Below are positions 30,490 through 64,000 of a DNA stretch of 64,000 nucleotides, in pieces. The notes under the pieces are model-generated. The model had not been told where the DNA came from. It did no database searches and worked only from the letters and a program-made list of their open reading frames with translations. Source of the stretch: Syncephalis plumigaleata (Eukaryota > Zoopagomycota > Zoopagomycetes > Zoopagales > Piptocephalidaceae); contig JAIXMF010000003.1 in assembly GCA_025201365.1 (NCBI GenBank), forward strand, positions 434,001 through 498,000, in the 5' to 3' direction. How positions within the stretch are numbered: the first letter of the stretch is position 1; each line of letters starts with the position of its first letter. Both the position numbers and the translations under genes were made by a program.

Positions 30490-30708
30490 TAATTGCAATG
30501 GTCAATACGACATATTTATTCAATAAATGACTGAATGATATGTAGATATATTTCTTGTCCAAAGAATAATGACTTGAATAGCATGAACACTAAAGGGTCT
30601 TGCATCAATATATTCTTGACTTGAATACCTATAATATCTACTTGATGATGTCCTTGTCTTGTTCTGTAAGCATAATGGATTAGTATGAGTATGATTATTG
30701 TGGATTAT
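30490..30708 (-). repeat. Terminal (3') exon and 3' flank of array 1; copy of 39513-39713
   Basis: About 220 bp nearly identical to 39513-39713 in the same orientation. On the minus strand it starts with a 46-nt intron (donor 30714, branch ACTAAT, acceptor TTACAG at about 30665-30663) and an exon beginning at 30662. In both copies this exon lies downstream of the first in-frame stop of the array, so I read it as 3' untranslated. An AATAAA lies near 30520 on the minus strand. Confidence 0.7.
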
Positions 30709-33700
30709 TACTTACCATTCCTCAAGATGTCTTAACAATTAACGTGTATTCATTACAATTAATGCGGTATTTGTTATCGTCATACTGCCCACTTACAAGC
30801 TATCATACAATCATACGCATATCGTATTTTACATTGATGTAATCAGTGTATAGTCTATGGCATCGGAAAGATAGCTTACAATCTGATGTATGCCAGCATA
30901 CGTGGAAACATGTCACATTACAATGAGTAATGCGTATACATTGATTGACATGTCCACTTACTTCCTATTATTATTATTATTATTTACAATCACATGGATC
31001 GAGTAGCATATTATGTTGAGTGATATACACGTCATCGGAAATACCAGCTTACTTGCTATTCGATATGATTGTACCGGATTGCGTATCGCACATCGATTAG
31101 TCGTACATCATGCATCGTGACTATGCCATCTTTGACTTACATCCTGTGTTGTACCATTGTGAATGAGCCATGTTACATGTCGCAATCAATGAATCATCCA
31201 TGTAGTCGAGATAATGCTTACTTTCTATTGCCCATTATCGTATATTAGTCAAGTCGTATTGCATTTAGCATAGCATAGCTTGTCATCAATCCATTGACTT
31301 GCCTCCTGTTGTATGTGATTATGCATGGATTGCATGTCGTATTGCCATTAGCACACGACCTATCACGATCGAATCACTGGCTTGCCTTCTGTTAATCCGG
31401 TAATACGTGGATTGTATGCCACATATCGTCATTAGCATGCTACATATTGCAAGTAAAAGTGCTCGCTTACATGCTGTTATACGCGAGTATACACGATTCA
31501 TATGGCGTACATTGCAATTAGCACGTCATAGATTGTCATTAGAAATGCCAACTTGCCTCCTGTCATTCACAATCATATGGAATTGAATGTCGCAATATAA
31601 TTAGCGTATTGCAAATTGCCATTGAAATGTCCACTTACCCTTTATTCTACGTAATCAAATGTGAGTCGTATGTTGTCTCGTGATTAGTGCACCATAGAAT
31701 GCAACAGCACTATCGACTTACATACTATCGTATAGAGTGTACAGGAATCGTGTTCGCATTACAATGAGCACATCGTCTATTCTGATCGGCATACTAGTTT
31801 ACCTTCTGTTCAATAGTTATACGTCAATCATATGGCATGACGATGTTGTTGTTAGCACGACATACACGGCAACAATACGTCAACTTACTTGCTATCATAC
31901 GCAATCACATAGACATGGATCGTATCCCGTATTGCAATTAGTGGGGAATACGAGCCACTAGAATGGTAGCCTACCTTCTTCTATCATACATGATCATGCA
32001 TGGATCGTATGCCATACATTGCCATTAGCATGTCGTATACCGGGATAAGAATGCCTGCTTACCTCCTATCACGCATAATCATAGGTGAGTTGTATGCCAC
32101 ATTACAATCAAAATGCCCACTTACAAACTATAGAATGTGGCCATACATGAAACGTATATCATCATACTGCAATCAATCTACCATACGATAGCATTCGAAT
32201 GCCACTTACTGCCTATGACACGTAAGCATACACGAATGAGATACAATACTGCTGTTAGCGACTATACTATTCGAATGAATAGGTTGACTTTCTTACCATC
32301 TATTATCCATGATTATTTGTGGGTGTACACCACGTCATTACAATTATTAGTACATCGTCAAATTGCCATTAGAGTGCTAGCTTACGGCCTATTATCCACA
32401 CACATATATGAACGGTATGCCAAATTACTATTAGCTACCAATATCGTATTACAACATGAATGCTGACTTACCCCTGATGCGCATAATCATACGTGGATTG
32501 TATGTCCCATTCCAATTAATGTCTCGTATGTCGTAACAAGAATAATAAACTTACAAACTACCACATACAACCATACGTGAATCATGTGCCATAATGCAAT
32601 CAGTACACCGCATGCTGTGATTACAATGCCCACTTACAAGCTGTTATATGTAATCGCACGCGAGTTGTTTACCACATTGCAATTAGATCGACGTATCAAT
32701 GCTAAAAATGCTAACTTACATCCTAGTATCCATGATCATACGGGATTGTATGTCACACTATGATTAATGCTTCATGTCTACAAGCTGACACGTTTAACTT
32801 ACAAGCTATCATGCAGTCATACATTAATCATTTGTGATATTCCGATTAGTATACCGTAGATTGTAATTTGGCATTAACCTACATGTTGATTCGCTTCCTC
32901 CAACTATGCCATACGTTAATCATTTGTCATACTCTGATTAGTACACCGTAGATCGTAATCGTGACATCAACTTACACGCTGCTTCTCAGCCTCCATCTAG
33001 GACATACAACAGTGGATTAGCTTCACATGTGCTTGACCAAATCAAACGATAATACTTACTTCTTCCTGTGCATAATCATATGAGGATTGTAAATTCCATT
33101 GTAATAAGTGCATGATGCATTATCATTTGGATATCAGCTTACTGCTATAAAATAATAATACAAGCACATATCACATTCCGATTAGCATACCGTATATTGT
33201 AATCAGAATGATGACTTACTTTCTTTCATACACAATCAACAGCCAATAGTATATCACAGTACGATTAATGTGCGGTGTAGATTAGCAGGAATGCTGACTT
33301 ACCTCCTAACATTGTAGGTTTATATGAATCATTCAATGGCATTACCATTAGCATGTACATCTTGTAATCAGCATGTCAGCTTACCTCCTATTAATGTAAT
33401 CATACGTGAATCATAGGGCATCTTGAAATTAGTTCATTCGCATTAACATCGAATAATAACTTACCATCTATCATTTGTAATCACATATGAGTTGTATTCA
33501 TTACGATTAGCACATTGTATGCTGCAATTATGATACAAACTTACCATCTGTCATTCATAATCATATAGAAGCCGTAGCATCACTATTAGTTTACGATAAT
33601 TTGTAATTGATATGCTAACTTACTTCCTGTTATATGTAATCATCAATGAGTTGTATACCAGCTTGCGATTAGTCAATCGTATGCGGTAATAATGATGCTT

Positions 33701-36700
33701 GATCACCTTCTGTCATTTATACACACGCGTCAATTGTATGCCATGCTATAATTAATTTGTTGTATGCTGCAATCAATAATGATAACTTACAATCTGTCAT
33801 TCAAATACATAAGTAAATTGTATGTTAAATTCTACTACGCTCATGTGCTAATATTGATATGCTAACTTACAAGCTGTCAGGTATAAGCATAGGTTGATTC
33901 CATGGCATATTATCATTAGTTCATCGTATGCAGTAATCAATGTATTAACTTACTCCCTGCCTCGTACAATAGTATAGAATGAGTGCCATAATACTATTAG
34001 TCCATTGCATGTCATAATCATCATGCTAGCTTACCCACTATCGTGCACAATTATAAGCAACCATATGTTAATTACAATTGGACTAATGTGTCGTGTAAAC
34101 AGAGTGTTAACTGACCATCTGTCATGCATAATCATGTATGAATTCCATGATAATATATTATTAGTCTAAGGTATACTGTAATCATATGTTTACTTACTTC
34201 TGTCACGTATAATCGTATGGAAATTAAGCACCACAATACGATTAGCTCATTAAACCCTTAATCAATATGCTAGCTTACCTCCTGCCATATACAATCATAA
34301 TCAGTCGTATGTTAATCGCTATTGGACTATCGTATGCTACAATTGGTGCTCCAACTTACTCCCTACCAATTATACGCATATGTAGCTTGCATGTTAGTCC
34401 ATCGTACGTTACAATCAGCACGTTAACTGACCATCTGTCATGCATGATCGTACGTGAGTTAAATGACATATTAATCCATCATATGCTGCAATCAGTATTC
34501 CAACTTACTACCTATTGTATGCAAGCATACGTACATTAGGTGTCATATTAGCTCACAATATGTTGTAATCGACATATTGACTTACTTGCTATCACACATA
34601 ATTGTATAGAAATCGAGTATCACAATACGATTAGTCATTAAACCCTTAATCAATACGCTAGCTTACCTCCTGCCATATACAGCATAATCAGTCGTATGTT
34701 AATCACAATTGGACTATCGTATGCTACAATTGGTACTCCAACTTACTCTCTACCAAGTATACGCATATGTGGCTCGTACGTTAGTCTATCGTACGCTGCA
34801 ATCGGCACGTTAACTGACCATCTGTCATGCATGATCGTACGTGTATTAGGTGTCATTTAGCTCACAGTATGCTGTAATCGGCATATTGACTTACTGTCTA
34901 TCACGTATAATCGTATAGATATCGAGTACCGCAATACTATTAGCCCATCGCATGCCATCATTAGTATGTAAGCTTACCTCCTATCATGTATAATCATAAA
35001 CAAAAATCATATGTTAATCACAATTAAACTATCGTATGCCATAATCAATATTTCAACTTACGCCCTGCCAAGTATAATCAGAAGTCATAGGTCAAATTCT
35101 AATGAGTTCATGTGCTAAAATTGACATCTTAACGTACCAACTGTCATACATAATCGTACGTGAATTTCATGATATATTAATCCATCATATACTGTGATTC
35201 ATATTTCGACTTACTGTCTATCGTGCGTAGTCATACGTGTATTGAGTACTATATTAATTCACCGTACGTTTCAACCAGTATATTGACTTACTTCCTGTCA
35301 CGTATAATCGTATGGAAATTGAGTACCACAATACAATTAGTCCATTGTATGCCATGATCGATATGATAGCTTACCGCCTATCATGTATAATCATAAACAA
35401 ATCATATGTTAATCACAATCGACCCATCGTATGCTATAATCGGCATGCTAACTTACAATCTGCCAGATATATGAATATATAAATTGTAAGTTAATTCATG
35501 ATTAGTCCATCACATGCTATACCCACCGTCGAACCTATAATCTGTCACGTATAATCATACGGGAATCATAGTTTGATTTACAGTAAGCTCATCGCATGGT
35601 GAAATCGGTATGATGGCTTACTTCCTGTCATTCATAATCATACGGAAATCGTATGTTACATCACGATTAACACATCACTCATTGTCATCATAGCGCTAGT
35701 TTACCATGTCCTATGTATTATTATACGATGATTATGTACCATTCCTATTAGTGCACTGTCTATTGTCGCTAGAATGCTAGTTTACCTTCTGTTATACGTG
35801 ATAGTACGTGAATTGTATTCCATACTCCAATTAATGTCTCGTATGCTTCAATCGAAACAATAACTTACAGCCTATTGTATTCCATAGTCATAGGTGAGCC
35901 ACATTTTGGGATTATATTCCACGTGATAACTTACACTCTATGTCGTGTGATCATCATACACACACACGTATATGAATTGTATGTTGCATTTCACTTAGCA
36001 TGTCATCCATTATGATTATTGTGATTGTTATTGAAATGCTAGCTTACTTGTTTCTACATGTGTCGTTACAAGTTAATCATGTATCATGCTACAATTAGCA
36101 TACTGTATACTATAGTCATCATAATGACTTACCCTCTATTATTCGTAATAATGAATAAATACTATGATTAGTATGCTGTATACTGACACTGGAATGACAA
36201 CCTACAATCTATGCCGTGTAATCATCCATCATGATCCATGTTCCTCATTTCGATTAACACATCACATATCACGATAGGAATGTCTAGTTACCCTCTGTTA
36301 CATGGATGCATACGTGAATCATCAATCAATTTGTAATTAACCGACTGCACATTGCACTGATCATCACTTACATACTATTACCCGTAATCATATGTGAATT
36401 GTATGCCATAGGGTAATGAGTACATCAACTAGTAAGACTGGAATGCTAACTTCTTACAATCTATTATGTATGTATATATATATGTGTGTGTGTGATGCAT
36501 TGGTATTAACACGTCATGCATTAGTATGGAAATGTCCACTTACATACTAGTGCAATCATATGCAAAGAGAGTGATGATTGTTGTTGTTATTAGTACATTA
36601 TACGGTAATGCTAGACTAGCAACTTACATCCTGTTACAGGTCATCGTACACGTAGCATGACATGTCAACTTGTAATGAGCACATCGTATGCTATGATCGA

Positions 36701-37432
36701 AATGACCACCTACATGCTGTCATGTATGTGTATGTGTGTGTGTGTGTGAAATGACAAGTGAAGTAATTGTGCCATTGCAATTAGTATGACGTATACTGCA
36801 ATTGGAATACCGCCCACTTACAATCTATTACGCGTCATCATCGGTGAATCGAATGCCACATTCCAACGAGTGCTCGCTTACCCACTAATACATGCAATCA
36901 TACGTGAATCAAATGGCTCATTACAATGATACTAGTAGCTTACGGTTCCTATGCATAATATCATACGGAATCGATTGCCACATTCCAATGAGCGTATGGC
37001 AAAGTTTCATGTGATTTACAACTCACCTCCTATCATACGAGTATTGCAATCAGTACTTGTATGTTTATTTAGACAGAATATCAACTTACGTCTGCTTCTA
37101 TAATAGTAACATATGATTTTGATTTACATTCCAGTCAACACGAATATGTCATCCTCACTCGTTGTTTAACTCACCAGCTATGATCGACAGCATCATATGT
37201 GCATCATCATTAGCATTGCAATTAATGTCATACGATATAGACTTACCATCTATTGATTGTCATTAGAAAGACCATTAGATAGTAGTATTACGATTAGTAT
37301 GTTGACTAGTATCGATGATGATAATGATGATAGAAATACCAGGGGAATTTGATGATACGGATGTTGTATCATTGACTATAGGCTGGCTATTGTTATTATT
37401 GTTATCAGCAGATGATTCATGTTGATATTGTC
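30662..37432 (-). CDS. Predicted gene with ~80 single-codon exons (array 1)
   Basis: Inferred from splice signals, not from a long frame. From the 5' end the single-codon exons begin ATG (37247-37249), CTG, ... and run to a 15-nt exon at 30715-30729 reading ACA TCT TGA, the first in-frame stop. None of the ~67 triplets is a stop. The predicted product is charged and helix-prone: KEMMEEK, then two 6-nt/21-nt exons giving EEMEAEKQRLEEANQH, later AMAFEKKQKY and EHKEKDQEILTS. The two 21-nt exons (32880-32900 and 32979-32999) look like a duplicated pair. Seven exons are 1, 2, 5, 7 or 8 nt; several lie next to a single C where neighbours have CC, so a base-call error could explain them. The first exon is not resolved: a possible one is 37432-37340 with a hydrophobic start MNHLLITIITIAS at 37420. 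Role unknown; secretion is suggested only by its sister gene. Confidence 0.55.
30709..37249 (-). repeat. Array 1: about 81 diverged ~83-bp units, each an intron plus (usually) three nucleotides
   Basis: Plus-strand core is [A/G]CTTAC-NNN-CT(A/G)T, recurring every ~83 bp (62-99) without a break for 6.5 kb. Read on the minus strand this is acceptor AG, three free bases, donor GTAAGT. A second conserved block, ATTAG on plus (CTAAT on minus), sits about half way and fits a branch site. The sequence between blocks is strongly diverged, but donor and acceptor are kept: the donor starts with GT in all but about four units, of which three (31296, 31379, 31551) are GC. By eye about 67 units have exactly 3 nt between AG and GT, four have 6, two have 21, one has 15; about seven do not fit 3n. 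Confidence 0.9.
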
Positions 37433-39512: not shown

Positions 39513-39713
39513 CATAGTTATTCAATAAATGATTGAATGATCTTGTAGATATATTTCTTGATCCAAGGAATAATGACTTGAATGTATGGACACTAAAGGG
39601 TCTTGCACCAATACATTCTTGACTTGAATACCTATATATATCTACTTGATGATGTCCTCGTCTTGCTCTGTAACCATAATGGATTAGTATGGGTATGATG
39701 ATTGTGGATTATT
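39513..39713 (-). repeat. Terminal (3') exon and 3' flank of array 2; copy of 30490-30708
   Basis: Same sequence as the 3' end of array 1, with a few substitutions and indels. On the minus strand a 52-nt intron (39719-39668, GTAAGT ... ACTAAT ... TTACAG) leads to an exon starting at 39667. The shared end shows that the two array genes descend from one ancestor. Confidence 0.75.
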
Positions 39714-41363
39714 ACTTACTGTTTATTGTGGTGACTATTTAATCAATGTATATCGTATTGCGATTAGTATATCGTAAATGACGATCGGAATGATAACTTA
39801 CTCCCTATCATACAGGAGCATACGTGGGTCGTGTCATGCTGTGATTAGTGTCTCATTTATTACGATCAGAATGATCACTTACGGCCTATCATACAGGAGC
39901 ATACGTGAATCGTGCCATACTGTGATTAGTACAGTATTTATTACGATCAGAATGGTAACTTACTCCCTATAATACAGGAGCATACGTGAATCATGTGCCA
40001 TTTAAAATTAGTATACCATAGATTGCCATCAGAATGGTAACTTACTCTCTATCATACAGGAACATACGTGAATCGTGCCATGCTGTGATTAGTACAGCAT
40101 TCATTACGGTCAAAATGGTAACTTACTCCCTATAATACAGGAGCATACGTGGATCGTGTGTTATAGTGATGAGTATATTCAGAGATAGCAATCACAAGGA
40201 TAACTTACGGCCTATCATACAGGAGCATACGTGGATTATGCCATGCTGTGATTAGTGTCTCATTTATTACGATCAGAATGATCACTTACGGCCTATCATA
40301 CAGGAGCATACGTGAATCGTGCCATGTTGTGATTAGTGTCTCATTTATTACGGTCAGAATGATAACTTACTCTCTATCATAGATGAACGTATGTGGATCG
40401 TGTCATGCTGTGATTAATATGCCATATATTACGGTCAGAATGATAACTTACATCCTATCATACATGGACGTATGTGGATCATGTGCCGTATTATTATTAG
40501 TGTGTCATAAATTACGGTCAGAATGATAACTTACATCCTATCATACAGGAGCATACGTGAATCGTGCCATGCTGTGATTAGTGTCTCATTTATTACGGCC
40601 AGAATGGCAACTTACTCCCTATCATACAGGAGCATACGTGAATCGTGCCATGCTGTGATTAGTACAGCATTCATTACGGTCAGAATGGTAACTTACGGCC
40701 TATCATACAGGAGCATACGTGGATCGTGTGTTATAGTGATGAGTATATTCAGAGATAGCAATCACAAGGATAACTTACGGCCTATCATATGGAAACATGA
40801 AAGTTACGTGATATACTATAATTAGTCGATCGTAGGTTATAGTCAGAACGGCAACTTACAAACTGTAATACAGAAATGTATAAATACATTAAGTATTTTA
40901 GTTAGTACATTTATACATTACGGCCAGAGCGGTGACTTACGTCTTGCTGTATAGGGCATATATAATTTGGGTTACATTGCAATCAGTACCTCATTCGTTG
41001 CAATCAGAATAGTAACTTACAGATTCTTAGAAATGCCATTACACATGATTTGATTTGTATTACAATTAGTATAGTACTTGTCATGATCAATAGAGCAGCT
41101 TACTGCTTGAGCTAACAAATTAAGAGGAAGAATAAACATTATGATGTGATTAGCATGTCAAAACAACCATTGATATACATGAACTTACGACCTATCGATA
41201 ATCATCGGTGGACAATGAAGCAACAGGCTACGATTAGTACATCAATTGATAGAGTCACGGCCAGACATACCACGACGATCCAGGACGGACTAGCTTCAAC
41301 GGCGACCAGACTGGTGACAGCGACAACGGCGACGGCAATGGCGATAGCGGCAGAGAACTTCAT
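39667..41363 (-). CDS. Predicted secreted peptide gene with signal exon and ~19 tiny exons (array 2)
   Basis: Exon 1 (41363-41271, 93 nt) encodes a textbook signal peptide, MKFSAAIAIAVAVVAVTS..., with a likely cleavage after VEA, then SPSWIVV. It ends in phase 0 at donor GTATGT. The next acceptor (ATCGATAG) is followed by GTC and then GTAAGT: one codon. Further exons in order: 8 nt (CTCAAGCA), 5 nt (AATCT), CAAGAC, TTT, GCC, GCC, GGA, GAT, GAT, AGA, GCC, GCC, GGA, AGA, GGA, GCC, GGA, then a 15-nt exon TCA CCA CAA TAA with the stop at 39726-39728 area. The mature product would be a small Gly/Ala/Asp/Arg-rich peptide. The 8- and 5-nt exons are both one base short of 3n. Expression and splicing are inferred, not seen. 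Confidence 0.6.
39714..41188 (-). repeat. Array 2: 19 units of ~82 bp, homogeneous, each an intron plus usually one codon
   Basis: Same design as array 1 but the units between 39796 and 40780 are close copies, with a shared core ATCATACAGGAGCATACGTG on plus. Only the three bases between AG and donor vary freely: GGA, GCC, AGA, GAT. A distinctive unit (containing GAGTATATTCAGAG) occurs near 40165 and again near 40745, about 580 bp or seven units apart, showing block duplication. The plus strand is by chance open in an 84-bp, 28-residue rhythm; I treat that as a shadow. Units nearest the 5' exon (40860-41188) are more diverged. Confidence 0.9.
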
Positions 41364-60815: not shown

Positions 60816-62666
60816 CTAGTAACTACTGGTGTACTTTCTATTGCCATAAGCACTACCATTGTTAGTAGCACTATCATTATTATTGTCATTATTAGGCGAG
60901 GAGGCTAGCTTAGGTTGACTGGTAGTATGAGCATCCATATTGACATCTGCATTGATCGATGCACCTAGGCCAAGAATGCCATTGCCATGCTTGTTCTTGC
61001 TGTTGCTACGATTACTATCGGTGTCGGCACTAGCACTCGATAGTTTACCGCCACCAAGTAAGCCAGATACGATTGGAACATTATTTAGTAGACCTTTACT
61101 GTTATCGCCACCTTGCAACAAGCCACCGAGAAGCGATGTAATGTTCAACAGTTGACCCAGTCCTTGAGCGATTTCAGTGCCAAGTGCTTGCGATAAAACA
61201 GTGATAGACTGGACGATGTTTGGTACACGAATACCCGCCTGGATGAATGAGCGTTTGGTACGAGCCACAGCATCGGTCGGGTTGCTTCCCGGTGTAACGG
61301 GTATACCAACCGTTCTACCATTCATAGTAGCGGTAAAGGTCTTTACTTTACCGGTTTGTACTAGGCGCTTCATCATACTCTCTCGATTCCATAGAGCACA
61401 TGGAGAAACGTAGTTGGGGATCTGGTTAAGCATCTCGACAAATTCCTTGGTGACGCGTTCCTGCTCGCGTATACGTGTGATATTGAGTCCGTTCATCTTA
61501 CACCATGCATCCGGTAGTTTAGGCGTGGATTGTAGCATTGTCACATCCACAATACCACTGTATTCTGTCGTTGCTGTGGTCGTTTCCGGATTGACAGGCA
61601 TTGGCGCAGATGGTACAGGAGGATTAGATGGAGTTGCAGGCTTGGTTGCCTGATAATTTGGTGAACGACGATGTAAAGCGTTAACTGGTGCTTGCTGCTG
61701 CTGTTGTGGTGGTACTTGTTGTTGTTGTGGTGGTGCTTGTTGTTGCTGCTGCTGCTGCTGCTGGTTTTGTTGAGATGTAGCAAAGTTCTGTTGATGCATC
61801 TCGTAAGCCTTCACTGGTGGTGCATACTTGTAGCAAAGGGATTTCTCGGTCTGAAGCACTTGTGATGTGGTAGCATTCCAATAGGGAAGCTTCTTCTCCA
61901 GATCTAAAACGCTATAGTCAGCCTGGTCGCCAACGAGTTCTTGCCAATCGGCCCATATCTTATCGATATAATTATGATGCACGAAGAACAATGGATCATT
62001 AGGGCTGTACATGGTGGCGAATCCGCCGCCAATGTTATTGTGAACGACGCTATGGGGGACACCCTCGACACTCGGCCAAAATTGCCCGAAATCCGTGGTG
62101 TTCCGTACTATAGCGGTGACAACCTCCATCGATACGAACGCGCCAATTGTGTTGGTCACCGTTTGGTTCGAGAAATAACGAGTAAGACAGTTTGGAGTGC
62201 CCTCCAACACGTAGACCGGCTTGTGATCCTTGAACGGACCGCTGTTGATACACCATTGAGGAGCATATCCATTACCGCCAAAGTACTTGTCGGTGAAGAT
62301 GTCGGATGCCGCGGGATTCTGCGAGTCCAACGACCAATCCCAGTAGGGAAGAACGAAATCGGGATCCGTTTTTCGAATAGCATTCTCTATATCCGATAGC
62401 ATTACACGATGCCAGGGCAGGAATTCCGGGACACCATGAATCGCCGTATGGTGGGAGTTGTGGACGTTCGCGTACTCGTGATACGGGCTGTTCTCCTGGG
62501 ACATGAATTTCCATAGCGTGGAAGTGAACTGGGATAATTCCGACTCGCTCAGGTCACGTATCTCTCGACGAAGGAATACTTTCTCACATTCGGCGGCAGT
62601 TCGATCGACCATCATGGCACCAGCCATGATACCGGTAAGCAATAGTTGTTTGATTAACAGGTGCAT
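60816..62666 (-). CDS. Secreted tyrosinase-family oxidase 10, intronless, Gln-rich linker
   Basis: A single open frame of 616 codons. Signal peptide MHLLIKQLLLTGIMAGAMMV. CuA: VHNSHHTAIHG and FLPWHRVML; CuB: VPHSVVHNNIGGGF and DPLFFVHHNYIDKIWADW. The linker is poly-Gln with PPQQQQ repeats (about residues 310-345). The C-terminal family domain is complete (LPDAWCKMNGLNITRIREQE, YVSPCALWNRESMMKR), and it adds a Gly/Leu/Ser/Asn-rich tail (GLLGGLLQGGDNSKG...) absent from the others. It stands 30 kb from the main cluster, shares the intronless form with tyrosinase 1, and has no frame break, so it is the best reference copy for the family here. Confidence 0.93.
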   Translation of the reverse strand: MHLLIKQLLLTGIMAGAMMVDRTAAECEKVFLRREIRDLSESELSQFTSTLWKFMSQENSPYHEYANVHNSHHTAIHGVPEFLPWHRVMLSDIENAIRKTDPDFVLPYWDWSLDSQNPAASDIFTDKYFGGNGYAPQWCINSGPFKDHKPVYVLEGTPNCLTRYFSNQTVTNTIGAFVSMEVVTAIVRNTTDFGQFWPSVEGVPHSVVHNNIGGGFATMYSPNDPLFFVHHNYIDKIWADWQELVGDQADYSVLDLEKKLPYWNATTSQVLQTEKSLCYKYAPPVKAYEMHQQNFATSQQNQQQQQQQQQAPPQQQQVPPQQQQQAPVNALHRRSPNYQATKPATPSNPPVPSAPMPVNPETTTATTEYSGIVDVTMLQSTPKLPDAWCKMNGLNITRIREQERVTKEFVEMLNQIPNYVSPCALWNRESMMKRLVQTGKVKTFTATMNGRTVGIPVTPGSNPTDAVARTKRSFIQAGIRVPNIVQSITVLSQALGTEIAQGLGQLLNITSLLGGLLQGGDNSKGLLNNVPIVSGLLGGGKLSSASADTDSNRSNSKNKHGNGILGLGASINADVNMDAHTTSQPKLASSPNNDNNNDSATNNGSAYGNRKYTSSY

Positions 62667-64000
62667 ACTGATTGTAGTAGCAGTAGCAGCAGTAGTAGTA
62701 GTAGTGTTGGAGGATATAATTTAGCAATGGAACAATGACAATAATTAAAGTTTACAGGTCACTCCAGCGGTGGACGAGGAAGACTAGGTTGAATTTATAT
62801 ACTAGGTAGGATCGACAATGTTAGTAGGGATATATTTCACCCAAGAGAATACAATATATCCGATACGACGACCTGCGACGTAAATAAGATACACAAAGAG
62901 GTTTTTGTTGTTGAAAGAGAATGATTGTAACGAAGGGATAATGGTATGTTACTACTAAAGCGAACAAAGAAGAATGATTTTCCTACTTAAAACCCTTCAA
63001 GTTTGGCGTAGTATTTTATACTTTGAATGGTAACGCTTAACGGTATGGCATCGCAATACATGTGATGGATGTTGCATGCAGTTTCTCTGTGACACCAAGC
63101 AGTGGTGTGCTCTTCCTTTCCCTATTGAGCATCATAGTAAGGTATATACGGATGTATAAAGCATCATTAACTATTATGACCCCGAAACCGGTAGAAATGC
63201 AACATTCCTCTAGTTAGGACGATACATGTGTACTAAGAAATGAGTATACGCACGGCACAGGGACTGCACAGCAAAGGGAAAGTGCGAAACAAGCAATAAG
63301 ACATGCAGTGCAACGCATATGCATGAGTGAGCAGTCATTTCTTGGCCATGCCATCAATGAGTCCACAAGTTGTACTATGCGCACTCGAATGTGACTGTCA
63401 CACTTCTTTTCCATTCAAGCCCATTGATTGATAACGCTTAAGCCGAGCAAACAAGAAACACATCATCATTATCATCATCACCAATAGTAATTATAGCCAG
63501 TATCCGAATAATGAACGTATCACTTACTTGAATATGTATGATAACGTGTAAGCGCAATGTTGTAGCTAATATTAGCAGTAATAAACAACTAAATAAAAGA
63601 AGAATGTATATCTCTATGCGTTTACTAGAAATGCCAAGTAATCTATAATTGTTGGCAGATGCCGGGTATACGAGAGCGAGAAAGTAAATGTGTATTTGTG
63701 TGTGTGTGTGTGTGTGTGTGTTGCTCTATGCCACAATGTAATTCAATGGAGACATGCAGTTAATAGTCAATAGAATGACAAATGATTAATGACAAAGAGA
63801 ATCAAGCTAGATTGTAGAATCATGTGCAAAAGTGTGAAAAATGAAGAACACATGTTGGACGGGTAAATGTTGTGCATCTTTTAATATTGTAACATTTCAG
63901 AGCGTAACCATTGAGCAAATGGTTGATAATAGCAATGGGACATGCTGCTTGGCTACACCTACATTGAAAGTACATGCTAGAGGTCGTCACACGAATACAC
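62667..64000. other. Upstream region of tyrosinase 10, no gene seen
   Basis: Promoter side of the last gene. Contains GTAGTAGTAG near 62690-62705 and a GT run at 63696-63721. A short minus-strand frame at 63214-63414 has no recognisable domain. Confidence 0.4.

Follow-up and report, generated by a model that had tools for sequence, protein, structure and literature searches.

A dispersed set of predicted genes in Syncephalis plumigaleata in which nearly every codon appears to form its own exon

A 64,000-nucleotide stretch of DNA from the mycoparasite Syncephalis plumigaleata, a fungus of the Zoopagales in the Zoopagomycota (C223:434001-498000 in the 32.6-Mb, 383-contig assembly; hereafter the window) carries on its minus strand an array, here called W, of some 80 exons, most of which are only three nucleotides (nt) long. 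We consider it very likely that W belongs, probably as a damaged copy, to a large set of genes of this species that are genuinely spliced and code for proteins, and in which a normal first exon would be followed by an intron of about 80 nt after almost every three coding bases. The introns would be of U2 type by consensus (GTAAGT...CTAAT...YAG) and would form one sequence-related family, and an ordinary spliceosome would join the triplets into messenger RNA (mRNA), splicing being most likely intron-defined and running 5′ to 3′ with each triplet added to the growing upstream exon. The architecture and its scale, the depletion of stop codons, the closure of reading frames, the splice-constrained choice of codons and the intronless counterparts are features read directly from the DNA.

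Structure of the array and its relatives

Splice signals and a learned prior on exon length, without regard to reading frame, were used to parse the window. This gave 80 micro-exons at 30716..37249 (minus strand, from 37249 down to 30716), of which 66 measure 3 nt, 4 measure 6 nt, 3 measure 2 nt, 2 each measure 8 and 15 nt, and single exons measure 5, 21 and 43 nt. The 79 GT-AG introns between them have a median length of 79 nt (range 57-119), with GTAAGT donors and CTAAT branch sites. An earlier note on this DNA, made by eye, had described a minus-strand array of about 80 exons with the same signals, and its figure of 67 units in 81 with exactly three bases is correct to within one; the other lengths it gave (6, 15 and 21 nt) are present, but exons of 2, 5, 8 and 43 nt were overlooked. 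Its statement that no triplet is a stop also holds for W (0 of 66). The motif AGNNNGTAAG is found 73 times in the window, in W, in a second array (W2) and in a few other places, as against 5.4 expected and a maximum of 11 over 100 shuffles.

W was taken in the earlier note for a single gene, whereas it belongs to a large dispersed set. The set comprises at least two gene families. Together with 13 paralogs (L009-L021) W makes up family A; family B consists of W2, L022-L028, L030-L036 and others. Searching the genome for exact consecutive unit pairs of the form AGNNNGTAAGT-N60-85-AGNNNGTAAGT returned 1,798 matches versus 16 for the reversed-pattern control. Extrapolation from 22 regions holding 307 unit pairs and 1,137 three-base exons puts the assembly at about 6,600 three-base exons, a rough figure in which haplotype copies are counted and the sampled families weigh heavily. 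In the same 22 regions 1,139 of the 1,428 exons are of 3 nt (1,126 of 1,454 when no length prior was applied) and 1,315 have a length divisible by three. The median intron per gene lies between 77.5 and 80.5 nt in 20 genes, and the maxima for any one gene are 93 internal exons and 78 three-base exons.

Exon 1 of W (37340..37420, minus) has its ATG at 37420 and its donor, GTATTT, at 37339, the frame being broken immediately past the start; in the paralogs this exon reads MELSADNNNNNSQPIVN... and ends in phase 1. Frame offsets are consistent along the arrays: the leader is read in phase 1 up to an exon of 2, 5 or 8 nt (2 modulo 3), past which the triplets are in phase 0; the tail of family A goes into phase 2 at an exon of 8 nt. 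In W this 8-nt exon is at 31639..31646 (minus) and shifts the frame: comparison with the paralogs and with L038, an intronless relative, places the final ten 3-nt exons in phase 2. The 8-nt exon differs from that of L019 by synonymous changes only (AAC AAG GG), and L038 keeps the same frame beyond it. The last micro-exon, of 15 nt (30716..30730, minus), carries the first two bases of the stop codon, and the terminal exon (30515..30663, minus) carries the last base, followed by a 3′ untranslated region (UTR) that families A and B have in common, with AATAAA at 30520; the TG|A junction is found joined in L038. Since the tail is read in phase 2, the first in-frame stop, which had been placed inside the 15-nt exon, has to be moved and is actually split between the exon at 30730-30716 and the terminal exon at 30663. 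Likewise, with the leader read in phase 1 and the tail in phase 2, not every triplet can be a codon, as had been supposed.

The eight family A predictions are proteins of 123-176 amino acids (aa) in which the start DAEADEEHWIHDYIYR and the end LDLFGAMAFEKKQKDNKGSIRRKIKKFLHLEE are conserved and the part between them varies. Proteins of family B start with MKFSAVIAIAVAVVAVASLVAVEA..., followed by Arg-Arg (Kex2-like sites). By eye, a signal peptide is not evident in family A, and exon 1 of family B is signal-peptide-like. The family B mature parts are diverse, lie nearly all in 3-nt exons and would yield small peptides, Gly/Ala/Asp-rich in L027 and His/Gly-rich in L023 and L033; a C..CC..C arrangement is seen in L022, L028, L032 and the intronless L043. 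The exon-1 sequence of family B is present at 148 genome places with up to 3 mismatches (control 0), some of these heading intronless genes rather than arrays. Both families have in common a 5′ leader motif, the 3′ UTR and the intron type. Among four spliced proteins compared with Pfam none passed the curated cut-off, the weak Conotoxin match of L028 (E 0.007) scoring 17.7 bits against a cut-off of 25.1, and Rfam gave no match above thresholds in the window. We infer that the array genes are transcribed and efficiently spliced and that their products are secreted.

Coding signal

Outside the family A tails, none of the 997 three-base exons is TAA, TAG or TGA, as against 33.3 expected from base composition, and family B alone has 0 stops in 231 triplets. 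The absence is specific to one phase: in runs of at least eight three-base exons the stops numbered 0 of 780, 21 of 730 and 110 of 730 in the three phases. In the whole genome AG-TRA-GTAAGT after CTAA occurs at 25 places, at most three of them array-like by eye (reversed control 209), while AG-CRA-GTAAGT in the same setting occurs at 88 places, about 75 of them array-like by eye (reversed control 33); the two controls reflect simple repeats, and therefore the comparison depends on the by-eye reading.

Altogether 29 regions were considered, of which 22 had both a recognised start and a recognised terminal exon and 7 did not. When the parse constrained to an open frame from ATG to stop was compared with the best frame-blind parse, the constraint cost 0-3.7 bits in 19 of the 22 regions and nothing in 10. 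L027 may serve as an example, with 84 exons, a closed frame and a protein of 117 aa; its predicted spliced sequence from ATG to stop measures 354 nt, as against about 6.9 kb in the genome. The suggestion that a protein is built one codon per exon thus stands at the level of the family, on stop depletion, ATG-to-stop frames, avoidance of CAG, conserved splice sites and intronless relatives, but not for the W copy itself.

The depletion of stops bears also on the reading of W as a tandem satellite in which AG-NNN-GTAAGT falls in the unit by chance and no gene exists. The regular period of about 80 nt and the duplications of blocks are what a satellite would have; stop-free triplets are not, nor are an exon 1, a 3′ UTR and a frame common to dispersed loci, and the intronless homologs described below contradict it. 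We consider this reading extremely improbable.

Splice signals and introns

In an alignment of 14 paralogs that spans the 26 C-terminal exons, no difference (0.0%) is seen at AG or at positions 1, 4 and 5 of the donor; the exon positions differ in 1.9-5.4% of cases and the other intron bases in 6.9%. The U1 RNA of the host begins with ATACTTACCTGG, which is fully complementary to GTAAGT; the introns thus have the features of U2-type introns, namely GT...CTAAY...AG in the position weights and the match to U1. The intron consensus of families A and B is alike by eye. A constraint from splicing is seen in the choice of codons, since a CAG triplet would be a competing acceptor directly at the donor. 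The glutamine triplets in the arrays are CAA in 33 cases and CAG in none, as against 101 CAA and 69 CAG in twelve ordinary open reading frames (ORFs) of the window (Fisher p 3e-7, the paralogs being related to one another). In the genome AG-CAG-GTAAGT after CTAA occurs at 4 places, none array-like by eye, the reversed control giving 5.

A role for intron RNA structure was considered and rejected: the consensus contains apparent inverted repeats without convincing covariation (287 and 744 introns), and folding energy is no better than that of shuffled sequences (z 0.55 and 0.43).

Intronless relatives

A six-frame search of the genome with 110 aa from the joined exons of L020 as query found three places. 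L038 (C318) is an uninterrupted ORF of 131 aa (E 1.1e-13 in the genome search); L037 (C220) is a near-copy of it, also of 131 uninterrupted aa and apparently the second haplotype; and L039 (C325) matches less well (E 0.0013) and contains internal stops. Two-sequence comparison of the L038 ORF with the eight spliced predictions of family A gave E values from 1.2e-27 to 2.8e-22. In controls without exon 1, the right phase matched in 8 of 8 cases and the wrong phase once (E 0.055), and on shuffling the exons 6 of 40 versions matched L038 with E of 3e-4 to 0.06. Also, the stop and the start of the 3′ UTR in L038 agree with the predicted last junction. For family B, a 25-nt string that joins the end of exon 1 to CTG, TTG, TCGAAC, GCC, GTG and CTC, separated in the arrays by six introns, is found at 13 genome places with up to 3 mismatches, 4 of them perfect (control 0). 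By eye, the exons at the predicted end junction are likewise joined in the four perfect cases, which are themselves out of frame. L030 (112 aa) and L043 are further genes of family B that have no introns and carry different mature parts; an intronless counterpart of the L027 mature part was searched for and not found. Splicing of the arrays would be expected to yield just such joined sequences.

Two further readings are to be judged by these relatives. In one, the array is a single long intron removed by stepwise recursive splicing, and the triplets are by-products that never enter the mRNA. Close pairs of acceptor and donor do resemble ratchet sites, but ratchet sites are AG|GT with nothing between, an exon of zero length, while here three bases are kept, are free of stops in one phase only and are joined in the intronless copies; we therefore hold this reading to be very improbable. 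In the other, the arrays are dead: the work is done by the intronless copies, and the arrays are older versions into which an intron-like satellite has spread and which are no longer spliced. The existence of intronless copies in both families is in line with this, as are the broken frames of W and L013. But diverged arrays keep their splice sites, frame and stop-free triplets, several intronless copies are themselves broken, and array triplets avoid CAG, which ordinary ORFs use, so that we regard dead arrays as unlikely.

Public gene models

L038 is 100% identical over 79% of its length to a protein of S. plumigaleata at NCBI. With the L027 protein as query 9 hits were obtained, eight of which carry the name S. 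plumigaleata, and leader residues are present in two of the public proteins (P0003 and P0006). P0006 is a protein of 70 aa with a family B-like signal peptide and an RRAVVQRRAP leader, encoded on a 1,442-base JGI contig that is not part of the assembly; the family may therefore exist elsewhere.

Points against spliced array genes

Several results weigh against the reading of the arrays as spliced genes. It may be noted that the whole case for one-codon exons is made from DNA sequence. The 997 triplets without a stop are not independent trials, since the family A paralogs share descent. Also, the absence of TAG may stem from splicing, like that of CAG, and for TAA and TGA only the expectation falls to about 17 (by hand, same composition); in family B alone the avoidance of CAG is not significant (CAA 4, CAG 0, p 0.15). 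As regards the frames, a first frame-blind attempt parsed 24 of the 29 regions and only 8 of these 24 (L017, L020, L024, L026, L027, L028, L033 and L036) closed unaided with a stop in the next-to-last exon. The comparison of frame-constrained and frame-blind parses given above was a second attempt, with the first donor of family A set by hand at GTATTTCTAT. In L034 the stop is found only in the terminal exon. In the frame-constrained parse the ATG of W has no open path at all, and L013 too is without an ATG-frame path. The control in the wrong phase gave penalties of 0-29 bits, and the wrong phase was better in W2, L022 and L032; this control is weak because the parser can regain the frame through one poor splice site. 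In W2 the ATG frame costs 5.9 bits and another phase 0 bits, and this copy too may be out of frame. Among the 13 joined leaders several are duplicates of one another (L045 and L048 nearly so). From the public models, the best hit of L027 covers 48% of it and none of the hits goes far beyond the signal peptide and leader; P0002 (NCBI BDF22DRAFT_742100; C318:1455881-1458300) fuses the intronless family A gene L038 to exon 1 of the neighbouring family B gene L027 and runs into its first intron, and P0009 also ends within first-intron sequence. Lastly, the intronless copies fit equally the removal of introns from some copies through spliced complementary DNA (cDNA) and the invasion of intronless genes by the intron family.

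With regard to W itself, in which several exons are shorter than in most of its relatives, we conclude that this copy has probably been damaged or misassembled and is unlikely to give a full protein; intact relatives exist, and L020 (C351:169900-179899) and L027 (C318:1456000-1465999) are examples of intact arrays.

Gain or loss of introns

Between these two directions we slightly favour gain. For invasion, the introns of family B are about equally alike within and between arrays (mean identity 0.76-0.78 within arrays, by distance, and 0.758 between arrays) without a neighbour effect, and codons hardly follow the similarity of the introns, units with 90-95% identical introns differing in their codons at 0.58 per base (148 pairs). 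The intronless protein of 131 aa is about as long as the array proteins of 123-176 aa, and hence the arrays did not merely add codons. Against a simple invasion, the 3-nt spacing holds in all three phases, and blocks of units have been duplicated, e.g. units 61-66 and 76-81 of L027. Also, isolated copies of the intron are not seen: none of the 161 intron-family matches in the window lies outside the arrays, and none of the 1,443 matches in the window and the loci together is isolated, most of these loci having been chosen for their arrays and some overlapping. Gene conversion that makes the introns alike while selection preserves the codons would fit as well.

Local duplication of units as the sole origin was rejected, since intron similarity is flat along the array and nearly equal between arrays and the codons have diverged; clear block duplications do exist, so that duplication and another process may both act. 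Plain retroposition of L038 was rejected too, about 95 nt upstream of its ATG being common to array copies and 362 nt downstream being common to L019; the upstream sharing of about 95 nt also occurs among some array copies. A poly-A tract was not seen by eye at L038. In view of the shared flanks and the lack of a visible poly-A, conversion by cDNA or an intronless ancestor is as likely for this gene as plain retroposition.

Second array and other features

W2, of family B, occupies about 41363-39518 on the minus strand, its units being arranged in higher-order repeats of about 81, 326 and 407 bases. Its exon 1 (41271..41363, minus) has the signal-peptide-like start MKFSAAIAIAVAVVAVTSLVAVEA; the micro-exon array (39720..41191, minus) has 19 internal exons on the ATG-frame path, 15 of them of 3 nt; and the terminal exon with the 3′ UTR (39518..39667, minus) has AATAA at 39522.

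Tyrosinase-like ORFs, most of them on the minus strand, follow one another at 5046-30343 and 60816-62720 of the window and appear to be a tandem expansion; one was confirmed as PF00264 and the others were assigned by motif from the ORF list. At L029, beside the U1 gene, an ORF at 926-1321 with a signal-peptide-like start MKSSIILAVLGCVASIGLVDA... is uninterrupted by eye. The contig pairs C220/C318, C60/C68 and C112/C323, each a small and a large contig, hold near-identical genes or array units and appear to be haplotype duplicates, which allow alleles to be compared unit by unit.

Discussion

The splicing chemistry proposed here is ordinary U2 chemistry, and tiny exons, micro-exon genes and introners are each known; a gene family in which nearly every codon would have its own exon departs from the micro-exon genes of schistosomes and the bicycle genes of aphids in features compared below. 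The earlier note knew of no described gene of this kind, and in the open-licence literature of PubMed Central, a scope that leaves subscription papers and preprints aside, we likewise found none. As far as the cited text describes them, micro-exon genes (MEGs) of schistosomes have 10-20 exons per gene, which measure 6-81 bp (the abstract gives 3-81) and most often 15, and their introns measure 0.1-5 kb (PMC10526429). The arrays resemble them in having many very short and mostly frame-neutral exons (1,315 of 1,428 being multiples of three) and many gene copies, and MEG proteins are secreted and variable. They differ in that the internal exons are mostly of 3 nt, up to 93 per gene, and the introns are related and uniformly of about 80 nt; exons of about 15 nt with introns of 0.1-5 kb are not the pattern here. 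Aphid bicycle genes, according to the part of the source drawn on here, have about 17 exons on average, almost all in phase 2, and megacycle, of about 2000 aa, has more than 100 microexons (PMC9168663). Like the arrays, these form a large, effector-like family with short exons largely in one phase, recognised by gene structure; unlike what that text describes, the arrays have one codon per exon, three phases (leader 1, body 0, family A tail 2) and introns related in sequence. In Rhizophagus the SP7-like effectors are again fungal secreted proteins recognised partly by gene structure, for which the cited portion states one conserved intron before the first repeat as the feature (PMC11333574) and does not describe one-codon exons. 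The introns, which may or may not be introners, resemble these in that a single genome holds many of them, related in sequence and to all appearance derived from a common source; the isolated insertions in many ordinary genes that mark an introner family were not seen among the matches above, from the window and loci mostly chosen for their arrays. Splicing of exons of 1-3 nt is itself reported, in the excerpts available, for the 3-bp hth exon of Drosophila and the 1-nt exon of Fusarium CYP621A, each a single tiny exon in a normal gene, unlike the arrays.

A 3-nt exon is unusual even singly, and the several thousand estimated here would push the fidelity of the spliceosome and the cost of splicing to their limit: within an array each coding base comes with about 27 intron bases, and each amino acid would require a spliceosome cycle of its own. 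The arrays would offer a natural case for testing how the cell recognises exons below the size needed for exon definition. They would equally allow tests of how introns multiply, since a single genome holds copies of the same families both without introns and with the full set. That two public models read into a first intron illustrates how annotation can hide a class of proteins. With an intron of one related family after each codon, single codons could be gained, lost, exchanged or skipped with the frame kept intact, and as a likely consequence the peptides would vary codon by codon. We put forward tentatively, as a possibility that we rate below an even chance, that the new architecture is a system of peptide variation, in which secreted peptides would be diversified residue by residue through recombination of units and perhaps through splicing in single cells.

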